Below are positions 9,619 through 34,613 of a DNA stretch of 53,966 nucleotides, piece by piece. Both the position numbers and the translations under genes were made by a program. The stretch is from Syntrophaceae bacterium (lineage in GTDB: Bacteria > Desulfobacterota > Syntrophia > Syntrophales > UBA5619). The DNA is taken from NCBI GenBank assembly GCA_003141195.1, contig PLLC01000056.1, positions 19,622-73,587 on the forward strand, read 5' to 3'. Within the stretch, counting starts at the first letter, position 1. Every line of letters starts with the position of its first letter. The notes below the pieces were generated by a model. That model made no database searches. It was not told the origin of the DNA and saw only the letters and a program-made list of their open reading frames with translations.

Positions 9619-9715
9619 TGCCGTCTACGATCTAACCGCATACGGTAAGGGATTTTTCAGGTAAATGCCTCCGGGCCATGGACGATTTCATTCATGCGCC
9701 CGAATGTGAGGAAAG

Positions 9716-10334: not shown

Positions 10335-10362
10335 TCGGCGATTAATTCAAAGTGGAGGTCCC

Positions 10363-17432: not shown

Positions 17433-17537
17433 GTGCCGTTTCCCTCCAACGTGTGATTTTGCCTTTAAACGCATAACGGAACGATTTGCACCCTATCAAG
17501 CCCGTCAATCCGGGGGCCGGATGGCCGGCACGGGCAA

Positions 17538-18449: not shown

Positions 18450-19489
18450 GGGATCGGCACCCTTTCGACGATCTCGTTGATCACATCCTCCACCGTCACT
18501 CCGGCCTTGCGGGCGCGGGACTTCAGGTTTATGCGGTGCGAAAGGATGTTCTTCGCCAGCGCCTGGATGTCCTCGGGGAGGACCTTGTCGTCTCCGCGAA
18601 CGAACAGGGCCCGCACCCGCGAGGTCGGCCCCCACGCGATCGTCGCGCGCGGGGAGGCGCCGAGTTCGACAAACTCTTCGACGAGCGGCGACGGAGAGTG
18701 CTCATCGCAGTGGATATCCGGGTTGTATGGACGGGTGGCGCGGACAAGCCGGCGGATATATTTCTTGAGCGACGGGTGGAGTGCAACCCGGGTCGCGATG
18801 GCCGATCGGAGTCCGATGATCCTCTCGGGTTTCGCAAGCGGCAGGATATCCACCGCCTTGATGTCGAAGTCAACCAGTTTCCGTTCCTCGTCCGGTGAAA
18901 GGTATCCCACGTCGATGAGGAATGTGAAGCGGTCGGCGTTCGCCACAGAGAGCGGGAACGTCCCTTCGCCGGTTTCCACGGGGTTCGTGGTCATGACGGC
19001 AAAGTAGAACTCGGGCAACTCGAATGTGTAATCGCCCAGGGTCACCGTCCGGTCCTGGTTCACCTCCAAAAACGCGCTCTGGGACTTCGGGGAAATGCGG
19101 TTTCCTTCGTCGAGCAGCAGGATGTTCGCCCTCACCACGGGCCCCGGACGTTTCTCCCATTCGCCGGTCTTCGGGTTGAAGATCTCAACGCCGACGATAT
19201 CGCCGGGCGTAAGATCCGCACGGCCCTGGATACGCGCAAATTCGGACTCGGTGGTCTTCGCAAGGACGAGCACCATGTAAGTCTTGCCCACGCCCGGGAC
19301 GCCCCTGTACCATACAAGACCTGCGTTGACGCGCCTGTTCTTCTTGGCGCTCAGCGTGGTGGGAATTTCGGACATGAACGCAATAAAGGTTGCCTCCTTC
19401 ACGGAATTCAGACCCACGACACCCTTGTCGGCCTCAGCTTTCAATGCTTGATAGAGGGCAATCGCCTCTTGGAGATCAGGATGCAGCAC
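18446..19489 (-). CDS. moxR: MoxR-family AAA+ ATPase, 347 aa
   Basis: Walker A GVPGVGKT at residues 63-70 and Walker B ILLLDEGNR at 123-131, with the MoxR-typical ISPKSQSAFLEV after it, sensor 1 region FAVMTTNPVETGEGTFPLS and the C-terminal lid (PRATIAWGPTSRVRALFVRG). MoxR ATPases act as chaperone-like machines for protein or cofactor assembly together with VWA proteins. The start is GTG 19489 with GGGGGTGA upstream. First gene of the six-gene operon moxR-DUF58-BatD-like-BatA-like-BatC-like-BatB-like. The 290-bp gap upstream holds the terminator of the preceding minus-strand cluster. Confidence 0.9.
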   Translation of the reverse strand: MLHPDLQEAIALYQALKAEADKGVVGLNSVKEATFIAFMSEIPTTLSAKKNRRVNAGLVWYRGVPGVGKTYMVLVLAKTTESEFARIQGRADLTPGDIVGVEIFNPKTGEWEKRPGPVVRANILLLDEGNRISPKSQSAFLEVNQDRTVTLGDYTFELPEFYFAVMTTNPVETGEGTFPLSVANADRFTFLIDVGYLSPDEERKLVDFDIKAVDILPLAKPERIIGLRSAIATRVALHPSLKKYIRRLVRATRPYNPDIHCDEHSPSPLVEEFVELGASPRATIAWGPTSRVRALFVRGDDKVLPEDIQALAKNILSHRINLKSRARKAGVTVEDVINEIVERVPIP

Positions 19490-19673: not shown

Positions 19674-19710
19674 ATGAGTACCCCCCAGGCTTTCGCCGGG
19701 GGATACTCAT
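19674..19710. terminator. Bidirectional hairpin terminator ending the sulfur-gene cluster
   Basis: ATGAGTACCCCC and GGGGGATACTCAT pair over 12-13 bases with one mismatch around an 11-base loop. On the minus strand it is followed by AGATTTTGG. It lies 70 bases after the stop codon of the last HhH gene and before moxR, so it separates two minus-strand operons. Confidence 0.75.
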
Positions 19711-19779
19711 TACTTATCGGTACACAACCAGCCTCCGGCAGCATCTCCGGTTTTGTCCCTCTCAGGAAACCATCAGGTC

Positions 19780-20133
19780 TTAGCACTTGGAAGGCGATAA
19801 AACCGGTTCCGCATCGGGATCATAAATCACATCGCCATTTTTCAGGACGGGATTGAGTTTTTCAAACCAGGCATTCGTCATGCCGGGCACCTTCCTGAGC
19901 TGCAGAGGATCCTTGAAGGGACCGTTTTTCGTCCGGTATTCCACGATTGCCTTGCAAAGGGATTCGGGAAGCCGAAGATCCTCGAGACCCATCAAATCCT
20001 TCACGGTGGCCTTGTTCAGGCTGAGCACCTTCGACTGGGCTTGGGCGACCGACATCGTCCCTCCCAACAAAACCAGCGCAAAAACAAAGATCGCCACGGA
20101 ACACAGCCCCAAAATCAGCTTTTTCTTTTTCAT
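19780..20133 (-). CDS. Secreted ComEA-like helix-hairpin-helix protein (HhH-1), 117 aa
   Basis: Signal peptide (cleavage near VAQAQ at about 32) then a ComEA/PsbU-type HhH domain: LSLNKATVKDLMGLEDLRLP, AIVEYRTKNGPFKDPLQLRKV (shortened core AIVEYRTKNGPF) and PGM. ComEA binds DNA in competence, but related short exported HhH proteins, such as PsbU, are structural subunits of redox complexes. A short tail ends in PSKC with a single Cys. AGGAGGCAGTAT precedes ATG 20133. It is the last gene of the twelve-gene cluster, 116 bases after AssT2. No competence genes are near, so a DNA-uptake role is not supported. Paralogue of HhH-2 (28661-28984) and of the pseudogene at 32982-33230. Confidence 0.85.
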   Translation of the reverse strand: MKKKKLILGLCSVAIFVFALVLLGGTMSVAQAQSKVLSLNKATVKDLMGLEDLRLPESLCKAIVEYRTKNGPFKDPLQLRKVPGMTNAWFEKLNPVLKNGDVIYDPDAEPVLSPSKC

Positions 20134-20248
20134 ATACTGCCTCCTAAAAAATGTATTTGGTTTGTTGCCCACGGTTAAAGGCAATGGGATTGGGACCCCT
20201 CGCCCGATGTTAAAAACTGCCTTCCTTGATCCGCCTTCCGCTATTTCA

Positions 20249-21685
20249 TCATTTTACGGAAATGTCTTTGATCCGGAGTTTGCCGTTATCTGGAGGAAGC
20301 ACGGCCGTCTCCACGGGTTTCTGCAACTGAGGTATATAGTCGTAGGGCACCCGGTAGGCGCGGTACACCAGGTTGAACTTCCCCGTATCGACGAAATAGG
20401 GGCTGATGTACTCCCAGACGATCTCCAGATCCGGGGTCACTTCCATCAACTGACCCACGGCCCCATGGGTGATGAGCGTGTTGCCGTTGGGGAGGCGCTG
20501 GGCCGAGCTGACATAGCTGCTGAAAATCTTGTCTTCGTCGCGGTATCCGTAGGTTCGCCCAGAAAATTCCCAGAGGATTCTGAGCGTCGTGGGATCGATC
20601 TCGATCACCCGCGAGGTTTCGCGGATCGCGTTGTTCATACCGGTCGGACTGCCGGGGTTCGGGGCCCCGTAGCCGGCGCGGCCGCCGTTGTCGTAGATCA
20701 GGAGGTTCCCCTCTCCCGGAAGCCCCTTCGGGATCATGTGGGTGTGGTGCAGGCCGATGAGCCAATCGAGGTTCTTGTAGGCGTTCTTATACTGCCTGCC
20801 GGCAAAGGTCCAGACGGTGTCCGGCGCGTAGTAGGGGCCGATTTGATAGACCAGCTTCTTCGTCTTTTTGTCGATGATTTGAATGGTATTGGTCTGGCGC
20901 CCGTCCGAGATGATGTTTTCCGGATTGAACATGGCATACTTGACCGGGTCCTGGTCATACCACTTGTTGGGTCCGACATAGGACGCGCAGTTGATATGGG
21001 TCCAATCCCCTCCCTGGACCCCCACGACGCGGGTTGCCTCGAGATTGGGATGCTTGTACAGCGTGTTCTTGTCCTGTTCCGTAAACCCCATTTCCGAGAA
21101 ACCGTCGCTGTAGAGGTAATCCCAAAGGATTTTGCCTTTGGTATCCACCTCGACGAGATAGTCGTCCTCGATGAGCTTGTCGGTGAGCTTTTTATTGTTC
21201 ACCATCTTGTGGGACAGGATCAGGACCCTGTCCGTATTGAAGGTCATCGGCATGCCCGGCACCCAGTAGCCGACCGGATTGCCCGGCAACTGGAAATCGT
21301 GGTGCATCCCCGCCTTGGGGAAAGACCAGACGATCTTGCCATCCCAGTCCATGATGGACAGATCCGTCGATTCGGGGTTCTTCCACTCCCGTCCGGTATG
21401 CTCGATCTTTTCCCGGGTGGAGCCCATGATATATCCGCCCTTGAGGATTTTGACCGGATGGTCCAGGTTGCTCATGTCCTTCCACTGTTTCACGACATTG
21501 CCGTTCATGTCAATCAGAACGGAACCTTCCCCTTCCATCTCCGTGGCGTAAACCGTGTACCCGCTCTGGCATTTATCCGGCTTGTAGATGGTCGTTCCGG
21601 TGGGATAGACGGTCGGAAACCCGAAAACGGCTGCAGGGGCGATCAACAGCGCGCAAAGCCCCACGGCGATCCATATCTTTTTCAT
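20249..21685 (-). CDS. Arylsulfotransferase family protein (AssT2), 478 aa
   Basis: Exported (signal peptide, cleavage near VFGFP) beta-propeller protein of the AssT family. Propeller motifs include IDMNGNVVKQWKD, IMDWDGKIVWSFPKAGMHHD and RLPNGNTLITHGAVGQLMEV. His motifs shared with AssT1 and AssT3 are GMHHDF (about 128), DWTHIN (about 228) and LHHTHMIP (about 313). The family transfers sulfuryl groups between phenols in the periplasm. GGAGGTTGGCT precedes ATG 21685. It follows a small secreted protein gene by 60 bases and precedes HhH-1. Between DWTHIN and the propeller's next blade its sequence departs from AssT1 and AssT3, so the substrate pocket may differ. Confidence 0.87.
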   Translation of the reverse strand: MKKIWIAVGLCALLIAPAAVFGFPTVYPTGTTIYKPDKCQSGYTVYATEMEGEGSVLIDMNGNVVKQWKDMSNLDHPVKILKGGYIMGSTREKIEHTGREWKNPESTDLSIMDWDGKIVWSFPKAGMHHDFQLPGNPVGYWVPGMPMTFNTDRVLILSHKMVNNKKLTDKLIEDDYLVEVDTKGKILWDYLYSDGFSEMGFTEQDKNTLYKHPNLEATRVVGVQGGDWTHINCASYVGPNKWYDQDPVKYAMFNPENIISDGRQTNTIQIIDKKTKKLVYQIGPYYAPDTVWTFAGRQYKNAYKNLDWLIGLHHTHMIPKGLPGEGNLLIYDNGGRAGYGAPNPGSPTGMNNAIRETSRVIEIDPTTLRILWEFSGRTYGYRDEDKIFSSYVSSAQRLPNGNTLITHGAVGQLMEVTPDLEIVWEYISPYFVDTGKFNLVYRAYRVPYDYIPQLQKPVETAVLPPDNGKLRIKDISVK

Positions 21686-21744
21686 AGCCAACCTCCAAAT
21701 AAAGGGTTTATTTGTCTTTCCATTCAAGCGGCAATCCCGGTCCC

Positions 21745-22245
21745 TCAATAGGAAGGCGTCCCGCTCTTGCCCGTCGCCTCGTTCTCAATTCCAAACCAAC
21801 CGAAGATGATATCCATCCATTCCGCCCGGTTGCCTTTCCGCGCCGTTTCGACGCCCTTGTCACCGGCGCCGGTAAAGACGATGACCTCCTGGCCCTTGCC
21901 CCAGACATCGGACTTCACGTACATCGCGCTGCTTCCGGCCTGGTTCATCCTCTCAAACTCCGATTTGCTCAACGCCTTTTCGGCCAGCGGCTTGATCCCG
22001 CCGGCTTCATCCATCGCCCCCAAGAGAACCACGTACGGCGCGTCTTTGAAGGCTGCCAGGTCCGACGGCGCCACATTCTTGATGGGGATGTTCTTCGATT
22101 CCAGAAACTTCGCCCAATCCGCGGCCTTGGCGAAGCTATCCGGCGTGGCAACAACCATCAGATCTGCGGCAGAGGCGACCGGCGCCAGCGCCAGGCCCAG
22201 AACCGCAACCATGCCCAAAACCATGAACATTTTTCTCGCTTTCAT
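21745..22245 (-). CDS. Small secreted protein of unknown function, 166 aa
   Basis: Signal peptide (cleavage ASAAD at about 28), then an alpha/beta domain beginning LMVVATPDSFAKAADWAKFL and including VVLLGAMDEAGG, MYVKSDVWGKGQEVIVFTGA and ETARKGNRAEW. The strand-glycine pattern suggests a Rossmann-like or flavodoxin-like fold, but I do not recognise a named family. GGGGAGGAATTAT precedes ATG 22245. It is placed between AssT3 and AssT2 with gaps of 132 and 60 bases, so it is probably co-expressed with them and exported to the same compartment. Function unknown. Confidence 0.75.
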   Translation of the reverse strand: MKARKMFMVLGMVAVLGLALAPVASAADLMVVATPDSFAKAADWAKFLESKNIPIKNVAPSDLAAFKDAPYVVLLGAMDEAGGIKPLAEKALSKSEFERMNQAGSSAMYVKSDVWGKGQEVIVFTGAGDKGVETARKGNRAEWMDIIFGWFGIENEATGKSGTPSY

Positions 22246-22376
22246 ATAATTCCTCCCCATAATGGACTTGACAGGCTCCGGGAGACCCATCCGCTGCGGA
22301 CCCGCCCCGGGGCGTTTCCAAAAATCATGTCAAAAAGATCAAACTTTCAACCCTTTGACGTCATGCCGCCTTGAGA

Positions 22377-23738
22377 CTAATATTTGAAGATCTTGAACAT
22401 CTCCGGGCATTTCGGCGCCAGTTTCCCCTTCGGGCTTAAATCCTTGCCCTTCAAGCCGGGATAATCCTTGCCATACCGGTAGGCCCTATGAATGATGTTG
22501 GCCAAGTTATCGGGGGCCCCAAGCTGCACATTCTCCTTGTCGTCGTCGCGCATCGTGCAGATCATATTGTCATTACATATCGGGCTCACGAAATCCCAGA
22601 CGATCTCGCCTCTCTTGGTCACCTCGAACAGATGGCCGACGTTGCTCGATGTGATAAACCAATTGCCGTTGGGAAGCGGCTGGGCCATGCCCTGACGGTG
22701 GGTGAAGAAGCTCGACTGATCCCACGCCTCAAATTTCCATTCGATTTCATTGGTCTTCGTATTGACGATCAAGACGCGGGACCGGGTCCCTTCCGGATTT
22801 TCGGAGCCGTTGTCGAAGACCGACACCTTGCCGTTGCCGAGCCACCGGGCGTCATGCGAACCGAACATCTTCTGATCGCCCGCATCGAAGTAGGACGGGC
22901 ATTTCCCGGCGCCGTAGGCGCAGGGGTTGCCCCACCGGTATACGATCTTTCCGGTTTTGTAGTCGATCAGATAGAACTCGCTGAGGTTCCGGGAGTTCAT
23001 CAGGACCTGATTGGTCTCCGGGATGTATTCGACGCTATTGAAATGGCTGTAGTCATAGTAGGTGTAGATCTCCCCGACCGGCAGCGGCAGGATGTAGTTG
23101 GGGTCCAACTTGTCCGGCCCCTTGCCGAGCTGGTCAAAGACATGCCACTCCCAGACGATCTTGCCGGACGGATTGACCTCCCAGACGAAATCCAGCCAGA
23201 AGTCCCGGTGATAGATCCCCTTATTCTTTATGCTTTTCGTCGGGATGGTCTTCGGGTCCCGGCCCTTGGCGATCATTTTTTCGTTTTCGATCCGTTCCCA
23301 TCCGAGGATCATCGTGTTCCCGTTCGGCAACCGGGTGAAGCAGTGGTGCTGGACCTGGTTTTTGGTGTACATATCCTTGAAGCTCCAGACCACCTTCCCG
23401 TCCCAGTTGAACTCTTCCATGTACCCGCCGACGCCGTCGATGCCGCAGTAAACTATCCCCGGCCGGGCGGCCCGGAGCAGGTTGCCGTTGGGGAGCAGCT
23501 CGGCGTACAGACCCGGGTAGTACTGCGACTCCCAAGTATGGATGAGATTGCCCTCCATGTCGATCAGAAACGTCTTCTTGCTGGTGAGGGGCGCATACAG
23601 CGTGTAGCCGTCGTACGCCTTACCGCTCTTGTAAAGCAACACCCCGGTCGGGCCCACGAGCGCCTGATAGGCATAGACGGATGTTCCAAAACCTGCAATG
23701 ATAACCAAAAGAGCGATAACCCAAGTTATTTTTTTCAT
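22377..23738 (-). CDS. Arylsulfotransferase family protein (AssT3), 453 aa
   Basis: Signal peptide (cleavage near SVYAY) and AssT-type beta-propeller with FLIDMEGNLIHTWES, EEFNWDGKVVWSFKDMY, PLPNGNWFITSSNVGHLFEV and VFDNGSENPEGTRSR. Shared His motifs: VQHHCF (about 131), DYSHFN (about 231), GSHDARWL (about 294). NQVLMNSRNLSEFYLIDYKTG matches the family's conserved Ser-Arg motif. Unlike AssT1 and AssT2 it contains several cysteines (VYCGIDG, NPCAYGAGKCPSY, SPICNDNMICTM), some of which could form disulfides. AAGGAGGTAGAG precedes ATG 23738. It sits in the middle of the cluster between a Usp-like gene and the small secreted protein gene. Confidence 0.88.
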   Translation of the reverse strand: MKKITWVIALLVIIAGFGTSVYAYQALVGPTGVLLYKSGKAYDGYTLYAPLTSKKTFLIDMEGNLIHTWESQYYPGLYAELLPNGNLLRAARPGIVYCGIDGVGGYMEEFNWDGKVVWSFKDMYTKNQVQHHCFTRLPNGNTMILGWERIENEKMIAKGRDPKTIPTKSIKNKGIYHRDFWLDFVWEVNPSGKIVWEWHVFDQLGKGPDKLDPNYILPLPVGEIYTYYDYSHFNSVEYIPETNQVLMNSRNLSEFYLIDYKTGKIVYRWGNPCAYGAGKCPSYFDAGDQKMFGSHDARWLGNGKVSVFDNGSENPEGTRSRVLIVNTKTNEIEWKFEAWDQSSFFTHRQGMAQPLPNGNWFITSSNVGHLFEVTKRGEIVWDFVSPICNDNMICTMRDDDKENVQLGAPDNLANIIHRAYRYGKDYPGLKGKDLSPKGKLAPKCPEMFKIFKY

Positions 23739-23814
23739 CTCTACCTCCTTCTTGTCTTTCATCATTCGGTAATTGATAATCCTGGTCCGTTTCCAGACCG
23801 GACCCCTGACCCAT

Positions 23815-24258
23815 TCAGCACTCTACCACCTTGCCGGCGAACTTCTTGCGGAGCTGAGTGGCGAGGTGCTTCTGCAGGAGCGGGAACAGTTTCTTTTTTT
23901 CTTTGGCCAGATAGATCATCTCGTACCCTTTTCCCGCCTCAGCGATAACGGTCGATACCACGTCATCCGTCTCCACCGGGTCAATCTCCAGGGAGACGCC
24001 CATATTGCGCGCCTTCTCCCGGAGTTCTTGCGCCTCCACTCCTCCGCGTTCGAGCACCTGATCGCGAATGTAGAGCAGAAACCTCTGCTTGTTGAGGCGG
24101 GGGGCGACCAGGTCATTGTGGCCGTAGTGGTAGAGGTCCGAATCGAGGATCTGGAGCACCTTTGCCTTTCTCGATGAGGACTGAGCGGCCCGGAATGCCG
24201 CATCGGCGGCATTCCCACTGCCGCTGCCATTAAAGACGATAAGGATATCCTTCATCAT
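23815..24258 (-). CDS. Usp-like cytoplasmic protein, 147 aa
   Basis: No signal peptide. Begins MKDILIVFNGSGSGNAADAA and continues with alternating strands and helices (KAKVLQILDSDLYHYG, EKARNMGVSLEIDPVETDD, GYEMIYLAKEKKKLFPLL), the layout of universal-stress-protein (HUP) domains. The usual ATP-binding GxxG-9x-GS motif at the C-terminus is not seen, so it may not bind nucleotide. A Cys is the last residue (VVEC). Usp proteins are often coded beside membrane transporters and modulate them; here a YeiH-family transporter and a 57-residue membrane protein lie just upstream in the operon. The family call is tentative. Confidence 0.6.
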   Translation of the reverse strand: MMKDILIVFNGSGSGNAADAAFRAAQSSSRKAKVLQILDSDLYHYGHNDLVAPRLNKQRFLLYIRDQVLERGGVEAQELREKARNMGVSLEIDPVETDDVVSTVIAEAGKGYEMIYLAKEKKKLFPLLQKHLATQLRKKFAGKVVEC

Positions 24259-24306
24259 CCCGGCCCTCTCTTCTCCAATCCGTTTCAGATTCGTCGCGAC
24301 CCGCTC

Positions 24307-24480
24307 TCAGTAGAGCCCCAAAGACTGCAATAACCAGAGGATGAGCACCGCGCCAAGGGCAATAACCATCGCGATGTACTCGTCGACGCGGTGGCGCAGC
24401 TGTTTCGCTTCAGCCGTGGCGGCAACCTTTTTCAGTTCGGCGTCATCCAGGTCCGCTTTCTTATCGATATCGTCAGTCAT
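24307..24480 (-). CDS. Small single-helix membrane protein, 57 aa
   Basis: Open frame from ATG 24480 to TGA 24307-24309, with GGGAGAGTATGGT as ribosome site. The first 36 residues are charged (MTDDIDKKADLDDAELKKVA then EAKQLRHRVDEY), followed by one hydrophobic helix (IAMVIALGAVLILWLLQSLG) and a Tyr end. It lies 72 bases after the YeiH-family transporter and 48 before the Usp-like gene, in the same direction. Its place and form suggest an accessory subunit of the transporter (inference). No named family recognised. Confidence 0.75.
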   Translation of the reverse strand: MTDDIDKKADLDDAELKKVAATAEAKQLRHRVDEYIAMVIALGAVLILWLLQSLGLY

Positions 24481-24551
24481 ACCATACTCTCCCTATCATC
24501 ATTACGTTCGTGTCATGCCTCGGGCATGTTCCAATCCCCCAAAGGGAAACA

Positions 24552-25718
24552 CTATTTGAAGTAACCCATCTTGATCACGATAAAAAGAAGTATCAGACAC
24601 ATGCCTATTCTCAGGCTTCCGGCGGTATACCCGATCACAATCCCTTTGGGCCCTGCTTTTCTCAAATCTGCCAACTTGGTCTGAAGTCCCAGACCAACAA
24701 AACAGAGGGAGAAAAACCAGTTCATCACATTACCCATCGCCTCGCTGGCCGGAACAGGCCAGACCTGCAGGCAATTCATGGTCCACACGGCGGCGAACCC
24801 GAACACAAAGAGGGGAAACTTCTCCTTGATAACCTGCCAGTAACTGACCGTCGCCGTGCGCAATTCCTTGCCCAAAGTCATGAAATAGATAAACAGAACG
24901 CCGGCGGGAATCAGAACCAACCGTCCGATGTTCGAAAAGCCGGCAACTTTCCCCGCCTCGAAACTGAAGTTGAAGCCGGTGGCGATGACCTGGTTCGAAT
25001 TGGGAACCCCTGCTGCGGCCAGCAAGCCGAAGGCCTCGTTTGACATACTCAGAAGCTTCCCCACAAAGGGGAGCGCAAAAAGGCAACAAAGGCCGAACGT
25101 GACCGAGACGGCCATGGCATAGGCCACCTCCTCGCTCTTGGCCCTTACCATCGGGGCGATGGCGATACACGCCGACACGCCGCACATGGAAAAGGCCGCA
25201 GCGAGGAGTCCCGTCATGGCGTCCCCCATTTTGAAGTGGCGTCCCATGAAGGTGAAGATGAGCGCCCCGCCAAAGACCATAAACACCATGACGATGATGC
25301 TGACGGCGCCCAGCTTCACCAGATCTCTCAGCATGTACTGGGACCCGAGCATGATGATCCCCACGTTCATGAAGACGCCGCTGTACGTCAGGCCCGGTTC
25401 CCACGATTTCGGAACACCGATGACGTTCCGAATAACGATGCCTGCGACGAGACAGGTCACCACATAGTTGAAATGCAAGAGGTCCACAAAGAGACCCTTG
25501 CCGTAGATCGGCGGCAACATTGCATCGAAGTAGCGCAAAAGACTATCAATCGTAAAAGAGAAGTCGACGCCCGGCAGGCCGCATGCTATCGCAATGATCG
25601 CCGTGGCCAGAAGTCCCGGCCAACTCTTCTGAAAGCTGGGGAGCGCACTCCAGATCGAAGGCTTGCGCGCCTCCGGGCGTCCCGCAACGACTTGATTATA
25701 AGTTACATCTTGTGCCAT
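24552..25718 (-). CDS. YeiH/UPF0324-family putative sulfate exporter, 388 aa
   Basis: Polytopic membrane protein with about ten hydrophobic helices. Family-typical stretches are NVGIIMLGSQYMLRDLVKLG, AFSMCGVSACIAIAPMVRAK (the conserved CGxSA-type segment) and the C-terminal LCFVGLGLQTKLADLRKAG. The family is annotated as putative sulfate/sulfite or sulfonate-product exporter; direct biochemical proof is limited. The N-terminal 30 residues are cytoplasmic and without similarity. It stands between the 956-residue secreted protein and the 57-residue membrane protein. In a cluster with sulfuryl transferases and a sulfur-type reductase it could move the sulfur oxyanion they make or use (inference). 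Confidence 0.88.
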   Translation of the reverse strand: MAQDVTYNQVVAGRPEARKPSIWSALPSFQKSWPGLLATAIIAIACGLPGVDFSFTIDSLLRYFDAMLPPIYGKGLFVDLLHFNYVVTCLVAGIVIRNVIGVPKSWEPGLTYSGVFMNVGIIMLGSQYMLRDLVKLGAVSIIVMVFMVFGGALIFTFMGRHFKMGDAMTGLLAAAFSMCGVSACIAIAPMVRAKSEEVAYAMAVSVTFGLCCLFALPFVGKLLSMSNEAFGLLAAAGVPNSNQVIATGFNFSFEAGKVAGFSNIGRLVLIPAGVLFIYFMTLGKELRTATVSYWQVIKEKFPLFVFGFAAVWTMNCLQVWPVPASEAMGNVMNWFFSLCFVGLGLQTKLADLRKAGPKGIVIGYTAGSLRIGMCLILLFIVIKMGYFK

Positions 25719-25796
25719 TTTGTACCTCCATTTCCCTTTACTTTTGCCAAATGGCCCTTATGGATCACCCGTATATTGTGCTCCGAATGCGTATCA

Positions 25797-28667
25797 TCAC
25801 TTCAGGCGCCATATCTCACGGTAGGCCAGTCTCCTCAATAAGGTCTTCCGGAGGAAATGTTCCGTCGTGCCGTTCACTCCGACCATCACATCAACGTTGT
25901 TCCGGGCAAGTTCCGCCAGGTTGGGGGTTTTCCATCCCGTCTTGTCTTCCATATGCCAAGCCTGAATCTTCTCGCCATCGAAGTCATCGATAACGATCTT
26001 GAAGTACCCCTCCGGCCCGGTATAGGTCGGGTTTTTGGCATCAAGGATAATCGACTCCGGGTTATCTAAGATAAACTCATTCAACATGTAGCAGTGGCCG
26101 CACACGTCGGGGCGCATCATGAAGCGCGGATCGCTCGCCCACGGTTTGTCCCGTTCAAGCTTGTGCGCACCCTTCGTCGCGTAGAGCGTCACCTTGCCCT
26201 CCTTGAAATCGGCGGGAAGATCGAGCTCAACATGGATGTCCTTGTACTGCATCATCACTTTCTGCTGGGCGGGGCTGTACTGGGGGAGAAGGTCATACAC
26301 CTTCTGATCGACGGGGCCCAGCGTTTTCTCCATCGCCACCTTGCCGCTCTCGTCGAGAAGGAGCAGTTTCACCGTTTTGCGCCCCTGATCGACGCTCGCA
26401 ACCTTCAGTTTGTATTTGCCGACGGCGGCCTCTCCCCCCGCCTTCAAGGCGAGTTTTTCCGGCGCCTCGTACGAGATCGTAAAGGAGTCCATCCCGGGGC
26501 TGCCCATCTCGGCAATCTCCACGACGTCCGGGCTTACCCAGCGGGGAATCGCGTACGTCGCCCCCTCGGAATATACGTCGGGCAGTGAGTAGTTCTGATT
26601 CTGGAAGGACTTGTCGCCGTAGATAGGCGCGTAATCCTTGAGCCCCGGTCCCAAAAGCATGTCCGCCCCGAATGCGTTGCCGGAATACTTTATGATGCGC
26701 GCCTGGGCCACCGGCCGTCCCCAAAGCAGCCGCGACTGCAGAAACCGCACCGTCTTGCTTCCGTCCCCCAGGGGAATATCCTGCCAGAACAGGGGGTTTC
26801 CATCCCCCATGGGCAGGAGTTTCCAGAAGTCCATCACCATATTTTTCTTGACAACAAGGTAGCTTTCCGTACTCAGGAGATACGCCTTCTTGCCAAGAAT
26901 GTAAATCGCCTCGCCGGCGAGGGGGCGCACGTTTCTCCCCAGACGGGTCGAATAACACAAGCCTGCCGGAGGTATGATGATTTTCCCCTTCCGGTAGTCC
27001 ACATAGCTGCCGCGTATGACAATCGCATCCGAAGAGGTGAGCCGTTCGCCTTTGCGCGTCTCCACAAATTTGCGGGTAAGTCCCTTCATCTTGGGTACGA
27101 ACGGGCAGTCGGGGTCGGGGGCAAATCCCTTTGCCGAGGCGATCGCCGCCGGATAGGACGTAAACTTCGACTTCACGATCGGCACACCGTAGGTCGGGTC
27201 GGCAAGCCGGTTGAGGAAGGTGTCCTCCATGACGGAGACGACCAGTTCGCTCATGCCGATGAAGAAGTCCGCGTTCTCCCTCCCTTCTTTCCAGAGGATC
27301 AGATTATCCGTCCTGCGGAACCAGGAATCCCTGGCATAGCTGTTCTTCACCACATCGCCTTCGATCTTCCCTACCACAACGCTGAAATATCTCCTGTCCC
27401 AGTAGTTCGACATGCTGATGGGACCGTCGTACGAGTCCTTCTCGTTGGTGAGCTCGAAGGGCTCCTTGTTTTCCAGCACGACGCGCTTCAGCATGCCGGA
27501 CATCTGCTCCGCCTCGAGTCCCACCGTGTACCGTTTATCTCTCGGCCACGGCTCGCCATCCTTCAGCTTTACCAGGTCATGATAAATAACGAAAGAAATC
27601 GTCCCCTTAGTCCATCCGTACGGCACATCATTTGCCCATGGTCCGAAGTCAGAGCCTTTAAACCAGGAGGGATCAACCACCAGTTCAATGTGCATATCAA
27701 GGTCGAAATCCGTGAGAGCCATCTTCTCCTGATCCGTCACCTTGTATTCCTGCTGAGTCGTCGGGAGAAGAAGCTTGGATGCCAGGACCGTCTTGCCGGT
27801 CCAGTTGCGGATTTCGACCAGGATGCCGTTCTCCTTCCTGAACGCGTAGATCCTCTTGTTGCGCCACCAACGGTAACTCTCCTGCTGGATACCGATCACA
27901 TACGGCCTGTCGAGGGAAAAGACCGCCTCCTGAATTACCGGGTATCTCACCTCCGAGAAGAGGGCCTCTTCGTGCGTAAGCTTTTTGGTGACGAGTTTCG
28001 TCGCACCGTATGAATACGTACTGGTCAGGAAGAACTGTTCCTGCTGGGGATTTATCCCCTCTTTCAGCTTTAACGCCCTCGCCTGCGCAGGTTCGGGAAA
28101 GGAGGAAGAGACGGGCATCTCAGACTGCCAGCCACCGGAGGGCGACATCACCGCGAATTCGCCGTAGGGTTTGCCGTAGTGATCCGTCGAGTAATCGAAC
28201 CAGAGGCGATACCCTTTATCATCCAGGAGGGCCTTATCCCTCCTTTTCAGCGAGAAATTCTGCTTCGAGACCTGCCCGGTTTTCAGGGACAGGAGGTAGG
28301 AAGTCTCTCCGAGAATGAGGAAAGGGTCGCTCCTCAGGGGCTTGGCGTCCAGCGACGTGGAGGACGCATAAAAGAGCCCGCCGGCCGGCACCGAAACCTT
28401 GCCATCCTTCACCATGCTGCCCCTGAGCACAATACACTCGGCGAGTTCCTTCTCCTGCCCGTAGTGGTTCCTCAAGGTCTTGTTCAGCAGGCCTCCCAGT
28501 TGCGGGATGTATGTGGCGTCGTCAGCAGGGGGGAGACCGTGAGGTCGGTCCGCTCCCGCCGAGTACTCGGGGAGCACCATGGCAAACGACAGCACGAGGA
28601 GGAGGGAGAGAAGGATCCCTCTTCGAAACTGCAAGGGTCTTATGATGCGCAAAAGTTTATTTAACAT
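25797..28667 (-). CDS. Large secreted protein with internal duplication and one CGHC motif, 956 aa
   Basis: Signal peptide (cleavage near YSAGAD at about 38), then two homologous halves. Half 1 (about 70-500) and half 2 (about 540-950) share an N-terminal block (ECIVLRGSMV against AIVIRGSYV; ILGETSYLLS against ILGKKAYLLS) and a C-terminal block (DMHIELVVDP against DIHVELDLPA; then YFSVVVGKIEGD against YFKIVIDDFDGE; ADFFIGMSELVVSV against VDVMVGVNGTTEH). A CGHC motif (about 856) occurs only in half 2, where half 1 has a Cys-free QMSG. Gram-negative periplasmic or surface location is likely. I recognise no family. GGAGGAAAGGATTGCAC precedes ATG 28667, which overlaps the HhH-2 stop by seven bases, so the two are coupled. 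It follows the reductase module and may be an accessory or substrate-handling protein. Confidence 0.8.
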   Translation of the reverse strand: MLNKLLRIIRPLQFRRGILLSLLLVLSFAMVLPEYSAGADRPHGLPPADDATYIPQLGGLLNKTLRNHYGQEKELAECIVLRGSMVKDGKVSVPAGGLFYASSTSLDAKPLRSDPFLILGETSYLLSLKTGQVSKQNFSLKRRDKALLDDKGYRLWFDYSTDHYGKPYGEFAVMSPSGGWQSEMPVSSSFPEPAQARALKLKEGINPQQEQFFLTSTYSYGATKLVTKKLTHEEALFSEVRYPVIQEAVFSLDRPYVIGIQQESYRWWRNKRIYAFRKENGILVEIRNWTGKTVLASKLLLPTTQQEYKVTDQEKMALTDFDLDMHIELVVDPSWFKGSDFGPWANDVPYGWTKGTISFVIYHDLVKLKDGEPWPRDKRYTVGLEAEQMSGMLKRVVLENKEPFELTNEKDSYDGPISMSNYWDRRYFSVVVGKIEGDVVKNSYARDSWFRRTDNLILWKEGRENADFFIGMSELVVSVMEDTFLNRLADPTYGVPIVKSKFTSYPAAIASAKGFAPDPDCPFVPKMKGLTRKFVETRKGERLTSSDAIVIRGSYVDYRKGKIIIPPAGLCYSTRLGRNVRPLAGEAIYILGKKAYLLSTESYLVVKKNMVMDFWKLLPMGDGNPLFWQDIPLGDGSKTVRFLQSRLLWGRPVAQARIIKYSGNAFGADMLLGPGLKDYAPIYGDKSFQNQNYSLPDVYSEGATYAIPRWVSPDVVEIAEMGSPGMDSFTISYEAPEKLALKAGGEAAVGKYKLKVASVDQGRKTVKLLLLDESGKVAMEKTLGPVDQKVYDLLPQYSPAQQKVMMQYKDIHVELDLPADFKEGKVTLYATKGAHKLERDKPWASDPRFMMRPDVCGHCYMLNEFILDNPESIILDAKNPTYTGPEGYFKIVIDDFDGEKIQAWHMEDKTGWKTPNLAELARNNVDVMVGVNGTTEHFLRKTLLRRLAYREIWRLK

Positions 28668-28984
28668 GTGCAATCCTTTCCTCCGATACCTTCAAGAATA
28701 AAAAAATTAGTCCATTTCTTCAGAAGCGTCCGGTCCATGCCCTTGACCTGGAGAAGTTCTTCCAACTGCTGATAATCGCCGTTATCCTTTCGATATTTGA
28801 CAATATTCTTTGCCAGCTCCGGCGGCATCTGCGGGACATTCTTGACCAGCTCTTCGGCAGTAGCCTTGTTGATATTGACCGATTTCCCCTTCAGCGCTTC
28901 AGCGGCCAGAACCGTCCCCGCCAGCATATTGCAGAGAAACAAGGCAACCAGAAACCATATCCATACTACGTATTTCCTTCTCAT
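28661..28984 (-). CDS. Secreted ComEA-like helix-hairpin-helix protein (HhH-2), 107 aa
   Basis: Signal peptide (cleavage near VLAAE at about 28) followed by one HhH domain: VNINKATAEELVKNVPQMPP, IVKYRKDNGDYQQLEELLQV and KGMDRTLLKKW. Two cysteines close the protein (KDCTC). GGGAGG stands nine bases before ATG 28984. It starts 18 bases after the NrfD-like gene and overlaps the 956-residue protein gene by seven bases, so it is part of the respiratory operon. A structural role in the exported complex, as for PsbU in photosystem II, fits better than DNA binding (inference). Paralogue of HhH-1. Confidence 0.85.
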   Translation of the reverse strand: MRRKYVVWIWFLVALFLCNMLAGTVLAAEALKGKSVNINKATAEELVKNVPQMPPELAKNIVKYRKDNGDYQQLEELLQVKGMDRTLLKKWTNFFILEGIGGKDCTC

Positions 28985-29002
28985 GAAATCAGCCTCCCTC
29001 AT

Positions 29003-29935
29003 TCACGGCATATACGTCAGGCGATACGCCGCGGTGATAACATGCTCCTGGCCGGTAAAGACCAGGACCAAGCGCAACAAGAAGCCCCCGGCCAGAAGAG
29101 AACCGAGAACAACCAAAACCCTCGAAAGACTTGCCTTTGCCTTTCTCAAGCCAAGAAACAGCGGAAGCATACTGCCGACCCCGACCACACCCAGCCACCA
29201 GATAAGGCCATTCCCCCCGGTTATCAGGGGCAACACCTCTTCCCGCCTCATTCCCGGGACAAAATATAACATGACATAGACGAGAATCGCAAGAAGATAG
29301 GCCGGCAGAAGAATACGATAAGAACCCTGCAGCCACGGGAATGGTCCGGTGATGATCCCTTGCCGCTTTCCGGGCGAGAATAGGAGGGCCAGTAAGAGCC
29401 CGGCCGCAAACCCTGTAGCCATACTGGAGAAACAAAAGAGGGCCGGCAGGGCCGGGTTCCGCCAGATGGGGATGGAAGTGGCGGAGAGCAAAACACCGGT
29501 GTAAATCGAGACAAACAGGGCAACCGGACCGCCCACCAATCCCAGTGCGTCGCGGACCCTCCGCTGCGACCACAACGGCCATCTCCCGATCACGGGAATG
29601 CGCTCCCGTACAACAGCAGGGATCCAGAATATGGCATAGAGCGCCGCGATGACGGAAAACAGGGTGAGCAGCCAGACCCCCAGGGACATGGGTGAATCAC
29701 CGTTGAATACGGTCATCGTAAACCAGAAACGGGTTTTAGACCGGAGATCAAGGATCAGCATGGACAGGCCGAAGGCAATCGACAGCGGCGCCAGGAGGGC
29801 AGCTGCCCGCGAGCAGGCCTGGAAACTCTCACTCGCTCTTCGGCTCGCCAGCACCGCAAAGCAAAAGGCGCCCGCGGCCAAACCGGCGAAAAAGAGGTCC
29901 AGGACTACAGGCATGCCCCAGGTGATCTCACTCAT
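29003..29935 (-). CDS. NrfD/PsrC-like membrane quinol-interacting subunit, 310 aa
   Basis: Eight or nine hydrophobic helices. The start WGMPVVLDLFFAGLAAGAFC is the hallmark of NrfD-type subunits, and GDSPMSLGVWLL and FTGVL-like (YTGVLLSATSIPIW) segments match the polysulfide reductase PsrC group. These subunits anchor a periplasmic FeS/molybdopterin pair and exchange electrons with menaquinone. ATG overlaps the stop of the FeS subunit by eight bases (translational coupling). Family call firm; whether it acts as quinol oxidase (respiration) or quinone reductase is open. Confidence 0.9.
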   Translation of the reverse strand: MSEITWGMPVVLDLFFAGLAAGAFCFAVLASRRASESFQACSRAAALLAPLSIAFGLSMLILDLRSKTRFWFTMTVFNGDSPMSLGVWLLTLFSVIAALYAIFWIPAVVRERIPVIGRWPLWSQRRVRDALGLVGGPVALFVSIYTGVLLSATSIPIWRNPALPALFCFSSMATGFAAGLLLALLFSPGKRQGIITGPFPWLQGSYRILLPAYLLAILVYVMLYFVPGMRREEVLPLITGGNGLIWWLGVVGVGSMLPLFLGLRKAKASLSRVLVVLGSLLAGGFLLRLVLVFTGQEHVITAAYRLTYMP

Positions 29936-30590
29936 GCGTTTCCTCCTCGCTGACAGCCCTTTTCCACAGCCAGGCCAGAATGAAAACTCCGGGCACCAGC
30001 CCTCCCAGCCACTTCCACACTTGCTGGCCGGTTACCGTATTGAGGGGTACCGGGTCGGGCAATCGGAACTCCTCCGGTTTTCCCTGCAGGGCGTAAATCA
30101 TATGGAGACGCTCCGCTTTACCGTACGCGGTGAGCCCTGCCGGGATTTTTCCCGCAGGGTAATAGGTAAGCGAGCCTGTCGGGCACTTCGCCACACATGC
30201 CGGCTCTTTGCCGTAATCGATACGCTGGACGCAGAAGCTGCATTTCCTCATGGTATGTTGCGTCGGACTTACCTGGGGCACGTGGAACGGACAGCTCTGT
30301 ATGCAATATCCGCAACCGATACACCGTTCCCGCCGATGTTCCACAACCCCGTCAGCCCTCCTGCTGAGGGCTCCCGCGGGACAGGATGAAACGCAGGCCG
30401 GATCATCGCAGTGAAAGCACGCCGTCGATATGAAACGCTCGTCGCCATCAGGAAAGCGCCCTTTGATGTGACTCCTCACCCCACGGAGCAATACGCCCGG
30501 CGGGGCATCGTTTTCCAGTTGACAACCCACCTCGCACGAGTGACAGCGAATGCACTTCTTCCCATCAAAAAGGATCAACCGTTCGCTCAT
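29928..30590 (-). CDS. Four-cluster FeS electron-transfer subunit (PsrB/NrfC-like), 220 aa
   Basis: Four Cys groups for [4Fe-4S] clusters: CIRCHSCEVGC (13-23), CFHCDDPACVSSCP (58-71), CIGCGYCIQSCP (90-101) and CSFC with CVAKCP (about 116-139). A C-terminal membrane helix (WLGGLVPGVFILAWLWKR, about 192-209) is an extra anchor found in only some members. No signal peptide is seen; such subunits travel with the Tat-bearing catalytic subunit. It lies between the molybdoenzyme and the NrfD gene and carries electrons from the membrane subunit to the catalytic subunit or back. Confidence 0.94.
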   Translation of the reverse strand: MSERLILFDGKKCIRCHSCEVGCQLENDAPPGVLLRGVRSHIKGRFPDGDERFISTACFHCDDPACVSSCPAGALSRRADGVVEHRRERCIGCGYCIQSCPFHVPQVSPTQHTMRKCSFCVQRIDYGKEPACVAKCPTGSLTYYPAGKIPAGLTAYGKAERLHMIYALQGKPEEFRLPDPVPLNTVTGQQVWKWLGGLVPGVFILAWLWKRAVSEEETHE

Positions 30591-30743
30591 GGTGATTACT
30601 GCAAAGGCGGATCAGGGATTAATGCATCGAAAGGATTCATCGCTCATCGAAAGAGACTTGGGCGTCCCCGCCTCATGGGTTCCTTACCCTTCAATCCTTG
30701 CTGCTTTTCATCCTGTCCTTACGCCTTTTATCCTCCTCATGCA

Positions 30744-32912
30744 TCAGGCTTTCGTCAGCCTGCAGCCAAACCCGTTGTACTGGGCCGAAACCTTGTCCCA
30801 ATTGCCGGGGATAATGGTATTGATCGATACCCCTGTATTGGCCTTTATAGGGCTGCCGCCTCCCGGATAAGAGGGTGTCCAGACGACGCCGGGCAGGATC
30901 ATTTCGCTTAAGTGAAGCCTTGCCTTGATCTTACCCAACTCGGTCTCCAGATAGACCCAGTCACCTTCCTTCAGCCCCAGGCTCTGTACCGTCCGGGGAT
31001 TCACCTGGACGTAATTTCCCTCCGAAAACTGCGCCATGTAAGCCGACCATTGCGTGTATGTGTGTTGCCAGTGCTGTACGACTTTACCCTGCGTGAAGAT
31101 CAACGGGAAGGCTTTTGCCTCTTCGGAATCCCCGTAAGGGCTTCCTTCAGGCTCGGTCCACTCGATGGGGCCGAGCGCAGGGGTGTTGAGTTCGACCTTT
31201 CGATCGGCCGTCAAAAAACGGTTGTCCGGGTAAAGGGTCCCCAACGTACCCGGATGCCCTTCCGCGGGGCAGGGCCACGATATGCCCGTGGGATCTTTTT
31301 TCAAGCGTTCCAGCGTCAGCCCGGTCCATGTCGGCGCGTTCTTCCTGACCAGCTCGAAAATATCCTCGGGGCTATCGAATGTGGGGAACGTCCCCGGGTT
31401 GATCCTCCTGCCAAGATCCGCATAAAAACGCCAATCCTCCACCGTTTCACCGGGAGCAGAGACCGCCCTGTTGCGCCAGACAACCTGCCGCTGCGCCCCA
31501 TACTGGGAACCGGAACTCTCAAATACCATGGTGCCGGGAATGATGAGATGGGCAAGTTGAGCCTCTTCGTCCATAAAGAACCCGCGGTACACGACAAAAT
31601 CGACGTTCGATATCCCCTTTCTCACCCGATTGGCGTCGGGGTAGCGCCGGTAACTGGAATTGAGCAGAAGAACCTTCACCCGTTTCTGCTCCATTCCGTA
31701 AAGCACCTTTCGGTAGCCAAGGGCTGCCGCCAGGTCTTTGGCGCTATACTTCTCCTCCAACATTTCCAGCCCGCCCGGCTTACCCCCCTGCATGTTCATG
31801 ATGCCTTTTCCGGGACCCGAAAGGTTTGCGGTCAGTGCCTGCAGCGCAACGATGGCCCGGACAGTCTGAATGGCGTTGGTAAAGCGGGAGAGGGAACCTC
31901 CCATCCAGATGATCGTTTGCTTGCTCTGCGCAAGCATTCTCGCCAGGTCGATCATCTTCTCTTTCGGCACCCAGGTGATCCTGGAAACCGCCTCCGGCGT
32001 GTAGGACTCGGCTGATGCCGCGAGTTCCTTGAAACCTTTCACGTAGCGGGCAATATAGTCACGATCATAAAGATTTTCATGGATAAGAATACGGATCAGT
32101 CCCAAAATGAGGGCGCCGTCCGTTCCCGGGCGTGCCATGACGTGCGTATCACTGTGGTTGCTTGTGGGCGTCCGCCTCGGATCGACGTAGATCACTTTCA
32201 CGCCCTTCTTGCGGGCGCGGTCGATCCAGCGAATGTATGGCGGATAGGTTTCCGCTATGTTCGCACCCCAAAGAACGAGTGTCTGGGTATTGAGCACCTC
32301 ATTGAGCGTGGTTGAGGAAACCGCGCTTCCGAGGCAGATACGCAGTGCCGTTGCGGAATTTCCGATGCATGTGTCCCCTGAGGAGCATATTTCGGGAAAA
32401 CCTGCCATACGGAGCGCCATTTGAGCCACAATCTCGCTCTCGTGAGACTCCCAGAGCGGGGCAAAGAGGGCCACCCGGTGGGCATAATCGTCGGGGAATT
32501 CTTCCTTTACCTTGACTATGCGGTTGGCGACAATATCCAGGGACTCTGCATATGAAATGCGCTTCCAGACGTCACCCTCCCGCTTGAGCGGGTAGAGGAG
32601 GCGATGAGGGCTGTTGGTCAGCTCGACCAGTGACTGTCCCTTGGGACACATGCCCCCCTTCGTCCAGGTGTTGGCCGGATTGCCGTACACGTTAACGACC
32701 TTATCATCTTTCACCTGAACCAGGGTCGTACACCTGACCTGACAGAACTGGCAGCAGCTTATCACCTCGCGGTCGATCCGGTTTGGCGATGAGGGACCCT
32801 GGACCTGCCCCATCCCTTTCGCTACGGAGGGGACTGCCAAGGCGCCTGTTGCCAAGGCGCCCGCCTTGAGGAAGCTTCTGCGTGACATGCCAATTTGGTG
32901 TTTCTTCACCAT
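30744..32912 (-). CDS. Tat-exported molybdopterin oxidoreductase, Phs/Psr-type catalytic subunit, 722 aa
   Basis: Tat signal MSRRSFLKAGALATGA (9-24). [4Fe-4S] site with Cys at 54, 57, 61 and 89 (CQFCQVRC and GGMCPKG). SSGDTCIGN gives Cys182 at the expected molybdenum-ligand position, as in PsrA/PhsA and related reductases rather than the Ser or Asp classes. The bis-MGD-binding domains follow, ending VSAQYNGFGCRLTKA. The family reduces polysulfide, thiosulfate, tetrathionate or arsenate; the exact substrate cannot be read from motifs. AGGATGAA precedes ATG 32912. First gene of the twelve-gene minus-strand cluster; a 150-bp gap without genes separates it from the FeS subunit gene. Confidence 0.92.
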   Translation of the reverse strand: MVKKHQIGMSRRSFLKAGALATGALAVPSVAKGMGQVQGPSSPNRIDREVISCCQFCQVRCTTLVQVKDDKVVNVYGNPANTWTKGGMCPKGQSLVELTNSPHRLLYPLKREGDVWKRISYAESLDIVANRIVKVKEEFPDDYAHRVALFAPLWESHESEIVAQMALRMAGFPEICSSGDTCIGNSATALRICLGSAVSSTTLNEVLNTQTLVLWGANIAETYPPYIRWIDRARKKGVKVIYVDPRRTPTSNHSDTHVMARPGTDGALILGLIRILIHENLYDRDYIARYVKGFKELAASAESYTPEAVSRITWVPKEKMIDLARMLAQSKQTIIWMGGSLSRFTNAIQTVRAIVALQALTANLSGPGKGIMNMQGGKPGGLEMLEEKYSAKDLAAALGYRKVLYGMEQKRVKVLLLNSSYRRYPDANRVRKGISNVDFVVYRGFFMDEEAQLAHLIIPGTMVFESSGSQYGAQRQVVWRNRAVSAPGETVEDWRFYADLGRRINPGTFPTFDSPEDIFELVRKNAPTWTGLTLERLKKDPTGISWPCPAEGHPGTLGTLYPDNRFLTADRKVELNTPALGPIEWTEPEGSPYGDSEEAKAFPLIFTQGKVVQHWQHTYTQWSAYMAQFSEGNYVQVNPRTVQSLGLKEGDWVYLETELGKIKARLHLSEMILPGVVWTPSYPGGGSPIKANTGVSINTIIPGNWDKVSAQYNGFGCRLTKA

Positions 32913-32981
32913 TTCATCCTAAATCCGAGTCACGAATCACTGACCTCAAATTAGAATTTTCAACTTTCCGCTCCCTACACC

Positions 32982-33230
32982 CTATCCCCGGTCGTTACAC
33001 CGATGAAGATCATCCGATTTCTCGAAAGGGCCGGCCTTTGTTCGATCATCTTTTGATCGCCTTGGCGACCCCGCTCGTAACGCCGGGCACCTTGCCCGGT
33101 TGCGCTGAATTTTGACCATTCAGCCTTATTTTTTCGCCAGCCCCCAGGCAGCCGCCGGGCCAGAGGAATCCCGCATGAAAAGGCCTGCCAATAGCGCCAA
33201 AGCCACTGTTAGGTATATGCTTTTCCTCGT
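32982..33230 (-). pseudogene. Decayed third secreted HhH (ComEA-like) gene
   Basis: Joined frames give a signal peptide RKSIYLTVALALLAGLF followed by GPAAAWGLAKK and a stop, then in another frame NSAQPGKVPGVTSGVAKAI, KR, a stop, SNKGRPFREI, and after a further shift DDLHRCNDRG and a stop. This matches the HhH layout of the intact paralogues (N-x-x-T/SA, VPGV, AI-x-YR-x-K-G-x-F, DDL). The expected start codon appears changed to ACG (33228-33230) with GAGGA upstream. At least two stops and two frameshifts. It lies 70 bases upstream of the molybdoenzyme gene in the same orientation, so the cluster once began with an HhH gene. Confidence 0.7.
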
Positions 33231-33644: not shown

Positions 33645-34613
33645 ATGGGAAAAGCCAAAACATGGTTAATAATATCAATATCCTTTATCTTGGTGTTCGC
33701 TGTTACGGGAGCAGGAGAGGCGAGAAACTACCAGACATGGTGCAAATCTTTCTCAACAGGCGAAAATCTTGCGTGTTCAACACATACGGATTACGGCGGA
33801 ACGTATTCATACACCCCCAGCGTAGCGCCAACGATCTATAACGTGCCGGACAACACGCTTTTCAACGTCCAGTACGAGGCAGTCGGCCACGAGAAGTCTC
33901 TTTTCTCCATGTTCGTGGATTCAAACGTATCTTCCTGTATAAAAGGCGCCAACTGCAATTTTTCCAATGGCAAATGGGAAACTCATTGCGTATGGAACAA
34001 CGTGGACGCCTGGGTCTGTACGATCTATCATCAAGGGGCAAAGATCAATGGGGCAAAGATCAACCAATATTGGCTCTGGACGGATTATGTAGTCACAAAC
34101 TACATATACTTGGCACTTACAGGCAATAAAAACAGCCCTCCTATCATAACCGCCGTCCCGGCAATGTCCTATCCAGAAAATACAGGCTCATTGTCAAACA
34201 TCGTGGATCTTTGGTTCTACACAGGAGATGACAAAACGCCAAAACAAGACCTGACTTATGCGATTGCGAGCCAATCGAATCCAGGAGTCGTCTCTTGCTC
34301 CGTTACTTCCAACCGATATATCAGCTGCTCAACACAGCCTTCTGCCAATGGTTTCACCGACATCACCTTCAGCGCAAAAGACGCAAGCGGTGCGACGACT
34401 TCCAGCACTTTCAGCATCACAATCACCCCCGCCAACCCGGCGCCTTCACCATCTGCTGCTGGAGCAAAACTCACCTTACCTTCGACACCCGCAGGAGACA
34501 CAATCACTCCAGCAACTCCATCGGAAACCCAGGTAACATCGCGTTTCGGGGCTGAAAAAACGGGGATGCGGAAGGCTGGTGGGCCGGTTGTTTCAGCGCC
34601 TCCAGGCCGTTGA
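33645..34613 (+). CDS. Secreted protein with Ig/cadherin-like domain, 322 aa
   Basis: Signal peptide (WLIISISFILVFAVTGAGEA, cleavage near residue 26). Residues about 27-160 form a Cys-containing domain of no known family (WCKSFSTGENLACSTH, NVSSCIKGANCNF). Residues about 165-265 look like a cadherin/Ig-like repeat (PPIITAVPAMSYPENTGS, DITFSAKDASGATTSSTFSI). A Pro/Ser/Thr-rich tail follows. GGGGGAATAACCC precedes the ATG. GC content is lower than in flanking genes. The last 10-20 residues are read across a minus-strand crp scrap (34583-34653), so the natural C-terminus may have been replaced by a rearrangement. Probably a surface or T2SS-exported protein; function unknown. Confidence 0.7.
   Translation: MGKAKTWLIISISFILVFAVTGAGEARNYQTWCKSFSTGENLACSTHTDYGGTYSYTPSVAPTIYNVPDNTLFNVQYEAVGHEKSLFSMFVDSNVSSCIKGANCNFSNGKWETHCVWNNVDAWVCTIYHQGAKINGAKINQYWLWTDYVVTNYIYLALTGNKNSPPIITAVPAMSYPENTGSLSNIVDLWFYTGDDKTPKQDLTYAIASQSNPGVVSCSVTSNRYISCSTQPSANGFTDITFSAKDASGATTSSTFSITITPANPAPSPSAAGAKLTLPSTPAGDTITPATPSETQVTSRFGAEKTGMRKAGGPVVSAPPGR

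Follow-up and report, generated by a model that had tools for sequence, protein, structure and literature searches.

Organization of the cluster

We analyzed a 53,966-nt stretch of DNA (the window) from a Syntrophaceae genome (G000, 3.27 Mb; contig PLLC01000056.1) containing a gene cluster that combines a molybdenum oxidoreductase module, two arylsulfotransferase (AssT) homologues, a YeiH-type transporter and small exported helix-hairpin-helix (HhH) proteins. The minus strand carries all twelve open reading frames (ORFs) between positions 32912 and 19780, separated by gaps that range from overlaps to 153 bp, in agreement with the unidirectional run described in the original prediction. Along this strand, the genes are arranged in the order Mo, FeS, NrfD, HhH2, p956, YeiH, m57, 147-aa (amino acids), AssT2, s166, AssT1 and HhH1, followed by a hairpin:

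30744-32912, minus strand: Mo, oxidoreductase of the molybdenum-bis(molybdopterin guanine dinucleotide) (Mo-bisMGD) type, 722 aa, exported (twin-arginine leader), with a [4Fe-4S] site and Cys182 as probable molybdenum ligand
29928-30590, minus strand: FeS, ferredoxin-type electron-transfer subunit
29003-29935, minus strand: NrfD, quinone-reactive membrane subunit (PF03916, E 2.8e-40)
28661-29002, minus strand: HhH2, exported ComEA-like HhH protein with the C-terminal end CTC-COOH (CNC in a cytochrome variant)
25797-28673, minus strand: p956, exported protein in which an undescribed domain occurs twice in tandem, with CGHC in the second copy
24552-25718, minus strand: YeiH, membrane transporter (PF03601)
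24307-24480, minus strand: m57, small one-helix membrane protein, kept between YeiH and the 147-aa gene
23815-24258, minus strand: 147-aa protein, soluble, universal stress protein-like by eye, without family match
22377-23765, minus strand: AssT2, exported arylsulfotransferase homologue independent of 3′-phosphoadenosine-5′-phosphosulfate (PAPS), catalytic residues conserved
21745-22290, minus strand: s166, small alpha/beta protein, exported, probably starting at 22245
20249-21748, minus strand: AssT1, the second arylsulfotransferase homologue, divergent, probably starting at 21685
19780-20184, minus strand: HhH1, exported HhH protein whose linker varies and whose C-terminal PSKC is invariant
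about 19674-19710, minus strand: hairpin closing the cluster, strong in fold prediction

Several of the listed starts are overlong; HhH1 and AssT1, for example, probably begin at internal ATGs. Searches against Pfam and NCBIfam assigned two HHH_3 domains, two arylsulfotransferase domains, PF03601 (YeiH), NrfD, FeS and a Mo-bisMGD domain with its twin-arginine leader, and returned nothing credible for p956, s166, m57 and the 147-aa protein. YeiH passes PF03601 and scores 94.7 bits against TIGR00698, below the curated cut-off of 232.6. A search of a viral collection gave zero matches. By eye, about ten of the twelve products appear to be exported or membrane-bound, rather than the eight counted initially; the 147-aa product carries no export signal. 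The proposed end of the cluster held up, as the region's best promoter-like site (TTGACA-17-TATACT, 19628-19600) is located past the hairpin, so that the next gene (19489-18446) probably constitutes a separate unit. No sigma-54 promoter was found upstream of the Mo gene within the window.

Conservation, variants and distribution

A neighborhood search confirmed that the twelve genes form a real conserved unit, above chance, as originally proposed. In G127, which represents another genus of the same family (contig CAIYSL010000039, metagenome-assembled genome (MAG) of an uncultured Syntrophobacterales member), all twelve occur in the same order with 64-89% identity, together with some flanking genes. 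Rearranged copies were identified in ten more genomes (G180, G437, G186, G200, G590, G592, G594, G582, G599 and G558) belonging to families f47, f53, f30 and f69. Seven cluster genes, Mo-FeS-NrfD-HhH2-p956-YeiH-m57, also lie on 6.4 kb of a MAG labelled Methylomirabilota (L004, JAHFDH010000001), which may reflect either inter-phylum transfer or a binning error. This brings the total to 13 carrier genomes or contigs. A chance neighborhood was rejected on the basis of synteny spanning five families.

In all copies where the contig permits, p956 adjoins YeiH. Around this pair, two forms were recognized: one keeps p956-YeiH-m57-147aa with Mo close by, except in truncated copies, and the other continues from p956-YeiH into HhH2 and cytochrome c554 (G200, G558, G582 and G594). 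The core consists of p956-YeiH plus the HhH and AssT genes, with Mo/FeS/NrfD, or cytochrome c554 in one variant, as electron module. A sensor kinase and an NtrC-like regulator are encoded near the cluster in five genomes (G180, G437, G200, G592 and G594), the kinase of G437 bearing a solute-binding domain. Also joined to the cluster are a metallophosphoesterase gene in G437 (L049:3624-5069), likewise in G592, and a type I phosphodiesterase gene in G180 (L048:3332-5428), both of which are possible pathway hydrolases. Because two-domain p956 was detected in only 2 of 155 genomes of the host order and ten congeners lack it, the unit is patchily distributed and has probably moved horizontally.

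Arylsulfotransferase homologues with conserved active-site residues

AssT1 and AssT2 both exceed the cut-off of the PF05935 family profile. Residues corresponding to His356, Asn358, Arg374 and the nucleophile His436 of Escherichia coli AssT (EcAssT) are invariant in 11 AssT sequences, drawn from the clusters and from the window. The printed profile alignment to 3elq places the His436 column one residue away, and this residue was assigned by motif; over the printed stretch, 4p04-4p06 have a PDB sequence that departs from 3elq at this histidine. EcAssT His252 and Thr501 fall outside the residue-by-residue mapping. The cluster AssTs thus retain the residues for sulfuryl transfer. A third homologue is encoded outside the cluster:

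7768-9618, plus strand: AssT3, beside a porin-like gene at 6418-7677

AssT3 has a glycine-rich C-terminus ending in tyrosine, directly follows the porin-like outer membrane gene (both within window positions 6418-9618, plus strand) and may be functionally linked to the cluster.

For bacterial PAPS-independent sulfotransferases, natural substrates are unknown and the physiological role is poorly understood; known arylsulfotransferases work on phenols (PMC13426309). This preference, the retained catalytic residues and the proximity of AssT3 to a porin-like gene fit an aromatic sulfate-ester pathway, in which AssT1 and AssT2 would swap sulfuryl groups between imported phenols or hydroquinones, the Mo or cytochrome module would oxidize or reduce the freed aromatic, and sulfate would leave or enter through YeiH. 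We consider this pathway unlikely, as it leaves unexplained two features described below, the invariant cysteines of the HhH and p956 proteins and the presence of dsrA in all examined cluster genomes, and no aromatic-ring genes were noticed in the neighborhoods.

A duplicated domain family with putative selenoproteins

The two halves of p956 align to each other and to single-domain relatives, making the protein a tandem duplication of a domain from an undescribed family. Its second half reads RPDVCGHCY, and all 12 two-domain copies whose sequence covers the motif region keep CGHC. In nine single-domain relatives, an in-frame TGA (written U) replaces the first cysteine, with similarity extending to either side of it. 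Five of these genes encode a UPQC form (two copies in G015 and one each in G016, G235 and G594) and four a USTC form (G322, G345, G206 and G427):

L017:8161-9666, L018:6384-7916 and L019:9322-10842: TGA-bearing single-domain relatives
L053:8986-10488, L054:9015-10397, L055:9306-10694 and L056:9596-10984: TGA-bearing single-domain relatives
L058:8956-10332 and L106 (about 9200-10860): TGA-bearing single-domain relatives

All seven tested host genomes (G594 was outside the test) contain tRNA-Sec; in G015 and G016, the gene is truncated where the contig stops. An in-frame TGA at a conserved cysteine is thus accompanied by tRNA-Sec and by a hairpin resembling a selenocysteine insertion sequence, which is clear and stable with a GGTCT loop shortly downstream of the TGA in UPQC genes and weak in USTC genes. 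The TGA-bearing relatives therefore probably constitute an unlisted selenoprotein family; no matching entry was found in the consulted part of the selenoprotein table of a 2026 prokaryotic inventory (PMC13188914). Single-domain relatives of G015, G016 and G235 lack a signal peptide, and those of the f36 genomes and G594 are exported. G594 encodes both the two-domain CGHC form in its cluster (L101) and a separate exported single-domain UPQC form (L106). A further single-domain relative in G206 (L057:8897-10315) has no TGA, reads CPQGHG and lies a few kb from a formate dehydrogenase-like Mo gene and a gene for a large protein of the flavin adenine dinucleotide/iron–sulfur type. At the sequence level, CGHC invariance, TGA at the first cysteine, tRNA-Sec and the UPQC hairpin are marks of a redox site.

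An AlphaFold2 model of the second p956 domain (mean predicted local distance difference test (pLDDT) 74.7) had its closest match in the DUF1608 domain of a Methanosarcina S-layer protein (Foldseek E 8e-6), with Z 9.4 over 223 residues but a root-mean-square deviation of 6.4. An S-layer (DUF1608)-like fold is tentatively predicted for this domain. The DUF1608 profile (PF07752) gave no sequence match to p956 or its relatives and nothing in the host genome, and a PDB profile search with p956 also returned nothing. As for p956 itself, Pfam and NCBIfam yielded no credible match for its relatives. The model of s166 (pLDDT 59) weakly resembles an S-layer anchoring domain and serves as a lead only.

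These structural matches raise a second alternative, a surface or periplasmic electron-transfer scaffold. Here, p956 and s166 would form an S-layer-like lattice cross-linked by HhH disulfides, the AssT-type propellers would be structural, and electrons would arrive from NrfD or cytochromes. The export signal and tandem domains of p956 recall the layout of the Methanosarcina S-layer protein, a signal peptide followed by tandem DUF1608 (PMC3361143), and the cytochrome c554 of one variant and a multihaem NrfD fusion in G437 would also suit such a role. We judge it improbable, as the invariant AssT active sites favor catalysis, the selenocysteine predicted in p956 relatives favors redox catalysis over structure, and the model of s166 is of low quality.

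HhH proteins ending in cysteine

HhH1 and HhH2 each combine an HHH_3 domain with an export signal, consistent with their assignment as ComEA-like; no competence genes were noticed near the cluster, although no test was aimed at them. Among copies that include the C-terminus, all 8 of HhH1 terminate in PSKC, preceded by a linker of variable length and sequence, and all 9 of HhH2 terminate in CTC or CNC. Four HhH proteins encoded elsewhere in G000, G127 and G437 lack a C-terminal cysteine tail.

A comparable arrangement exists in the f36 lineage, where the TGA gene is preceded by a gene for a different kind of small exported protein, with APDEGC at its C-terminus in all four genomes:

L054:8482-8790, L055:8770-9129, L058 near 8503 (plus strand) and L056 near 11470 (minus strand): small exported IAPDEGC-ending proteins just upstream of USTC genes

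Taking the cluster and the f36 lineage together, CGHC/UxxC proteins thus appear repeatedly next to small exported proteins with terminal cysteines.

Sulfur link and electron-transfer modules

All 12 examined genomes with two-domain p956 contain dsrA, compared with backgrounds of 39/155 and 61/85 genomes in two host orders. For ten carriers (2 + 8) in these orders, the naive joint probability is ~0.004, with relatedness ignored. The association lends modest support to a sulfur role of the cluster and, together with the intact AssT active-site residues, fits the sulfur function suggested at the outset.

The Mo/FeS/NrfD genes have the three-subunit layout of Psr/Phs-type reductases, and this part of the original assignment stands. 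The implied descent does not. In a tree of 26 sequences, built without PsrA, TtrA, ArrA and SrrA references, the Mo subunits of G000, G127, G180 and G437 grouped as a single long-branched clade (100/100), which fell outside the PhsA-holding group (99/97) as well as the formate dehydrogenase/nitrate reductase group (100/98). The best profile and PDB matches of the Mo subunit are formate dehydrogenases, which score above PhsA models; the ligand cysteine is kept but followed by isoleucine or valine, versus histidine in formate dehydrogenases. A PhsA-type identity was rejected from the tree, and a formate dehydrogenase identity from the tree and the residue after the ligand cysteine. The Mo subunit thus appears to form its own deep clade that is neither PhsA nor formate dehydrogenase, a position that would also accommodate the aromatic sulfate-ester pathway. 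As the module is absent from the cytochrome variant, Mo/FeS/NrfD is not a fixed part of the core.

These data bear on two further alternatives. Polysulfide or thiosulfate respiration of the Psr/Phs type with accessory AssTs, as originally proposed, would agree with the subunit layout and the dsrA genes; we regard it as quite improbable given the placement of Mo outside the PhsA group, the higher scores of formate dehydrogenase models and the lack of the module in the cytochrome variant. That a formate dehydrogenase module sits by chance among unrelated secreted proteins is highly improbable: its top profile and PDB matches notwithstanding, the residue following the ligand cysteine differs, the tree keeps Mo out of that clade and the genes are retained together as a unit.

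A proposed periplasmic sulfur pathway

Our working model, plausible but tentative, is a patchy, self-contained periplasmic pathway in which small exported carriers would shuttle sulfur or a sulfuryl group on their C-terminal cysteines. The components and the extent to which they are conserved were read from sequence, and from them we infer all transfer steps. AssT would take SO3 from a donor onto its catalytic histidine and hand it to an acceptor. The cysteine arms of HhH1 and HhH2 would hold substrate or product, following the logic of SoxYZ and DsrC, and p956 would form or resolve the disulfide, persulfide or S-sulfonate that results. Exchange of electrons with the quinone pool would fall to the Mo enzyme or the cytochrome, and YeiH would carry an oxyanion across the membrane. 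The model leaves direction (oxidation versus reduction) and substrate unspecified.

Several considerations weigh against this carrier pathway. The C-terminal cysteines could serve pure thiol-disulfide exchange or cross-linking instead of sulfur carriage, and HhH domains are chiefly familiar as DNA binders. Characterized AssTs use phenols and alcohols. The predicted S-layer-like fold of p956 also suits a structural role, and the dsrA association is statistically weak.

In its boldest form, the proposal describes a wholly new periplasmic sulfur pathway, in which cysteine-ending HhH carriers would be loaded by PAPS-independent sulfotransferases, turned over by a new cysteine/selenocysteine redox protein with an S-layer-like fold and linked to quinones through interchangeable molybdenum or cytochrome modules. 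We regard this version as possible but somewhat doubtful; if true, AssT enzymes would gain a physiological function in energy metabolism. As the original prediction had surmised, no system of this composition was found in the open literature, to which the search was confined, subscription papers lying outside it. Several single parts belong to known families, and the whole unit, the p956 family and the cysteine-tailed HhH proteins appear to match nothing described there. The cluster sets PAPS-independent sulfotransferases in a defined, conserved context in dsrA-containing genomes, which opens their role to testing. The analysis further brings to light a protein family with apparent selenocysteine members, lacking a counterpart among the consulted entries of PMC13188914, and cysteine-tailed ComEA-like proteins without known function.

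Flanking genes

Past the hairpin, four genes at window positions 15037-19489 (minus strand), of MoxR/DUF58/VWA type by eye, are kept beside the cluster in G127. Divergent from the Mo gene, an ORF at 33645-34613 (plus strand) encodes an exported protein of 322 aa whose Ig-like match is weak and which is conserved in G127 (63%). Transposase-like ORFs occur close to the window end (52762-53464, plus strand).

Comparison with known systems

Four described systems share features with the cluster. Like PhsABC and PsrABC, it contains Mo-bisMGD, FeS and NrfD subunits with an exported catalytic subunit; in contrast, its Mo protein belongs to a separate clade, and its module is exchangeable with a cytochrome and embedded among AssT, YeiH, HhH and p956 genes. 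The Methanosarcina S-layer protein (DUF1608, PF07752) resembles p956 in its signal peptide, tandem domains and similar predicted fold, but p956 has no sequence match to it, carries a CGHC/UxxC motif and comes from a bacterial host. With the E. coli AssT-DsbL-DsbI system, the cluster shares the catalytic histidine, asparagine and arginine set, the periplasmic location and a CxxC protein in the operon. It differs in that no family relationship between p956 and Dsb proteins was detected, and in its two AssT paralogues accompanied by carriers and a respiratory module. SoxYZ, which is periplasmic, and DsrC offer the closest parallel to the proposed carriers. In a profile search, HhH1 and HhH2 matched HHH_3 only, with no SoxY or DsrC match, so that the likeness is one of functional analogy, and no SoxAXB, SoxCD or DsrMKJOP genes were noticed in the cluster neighborhoods. 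As in SoxYZ and DsrC, a small protein presents a conserved cysteine on a flexible C-terminus to redox partners; unlike them, HhH1 and HhH2 have an HhH fold and end exactly in cysteine.

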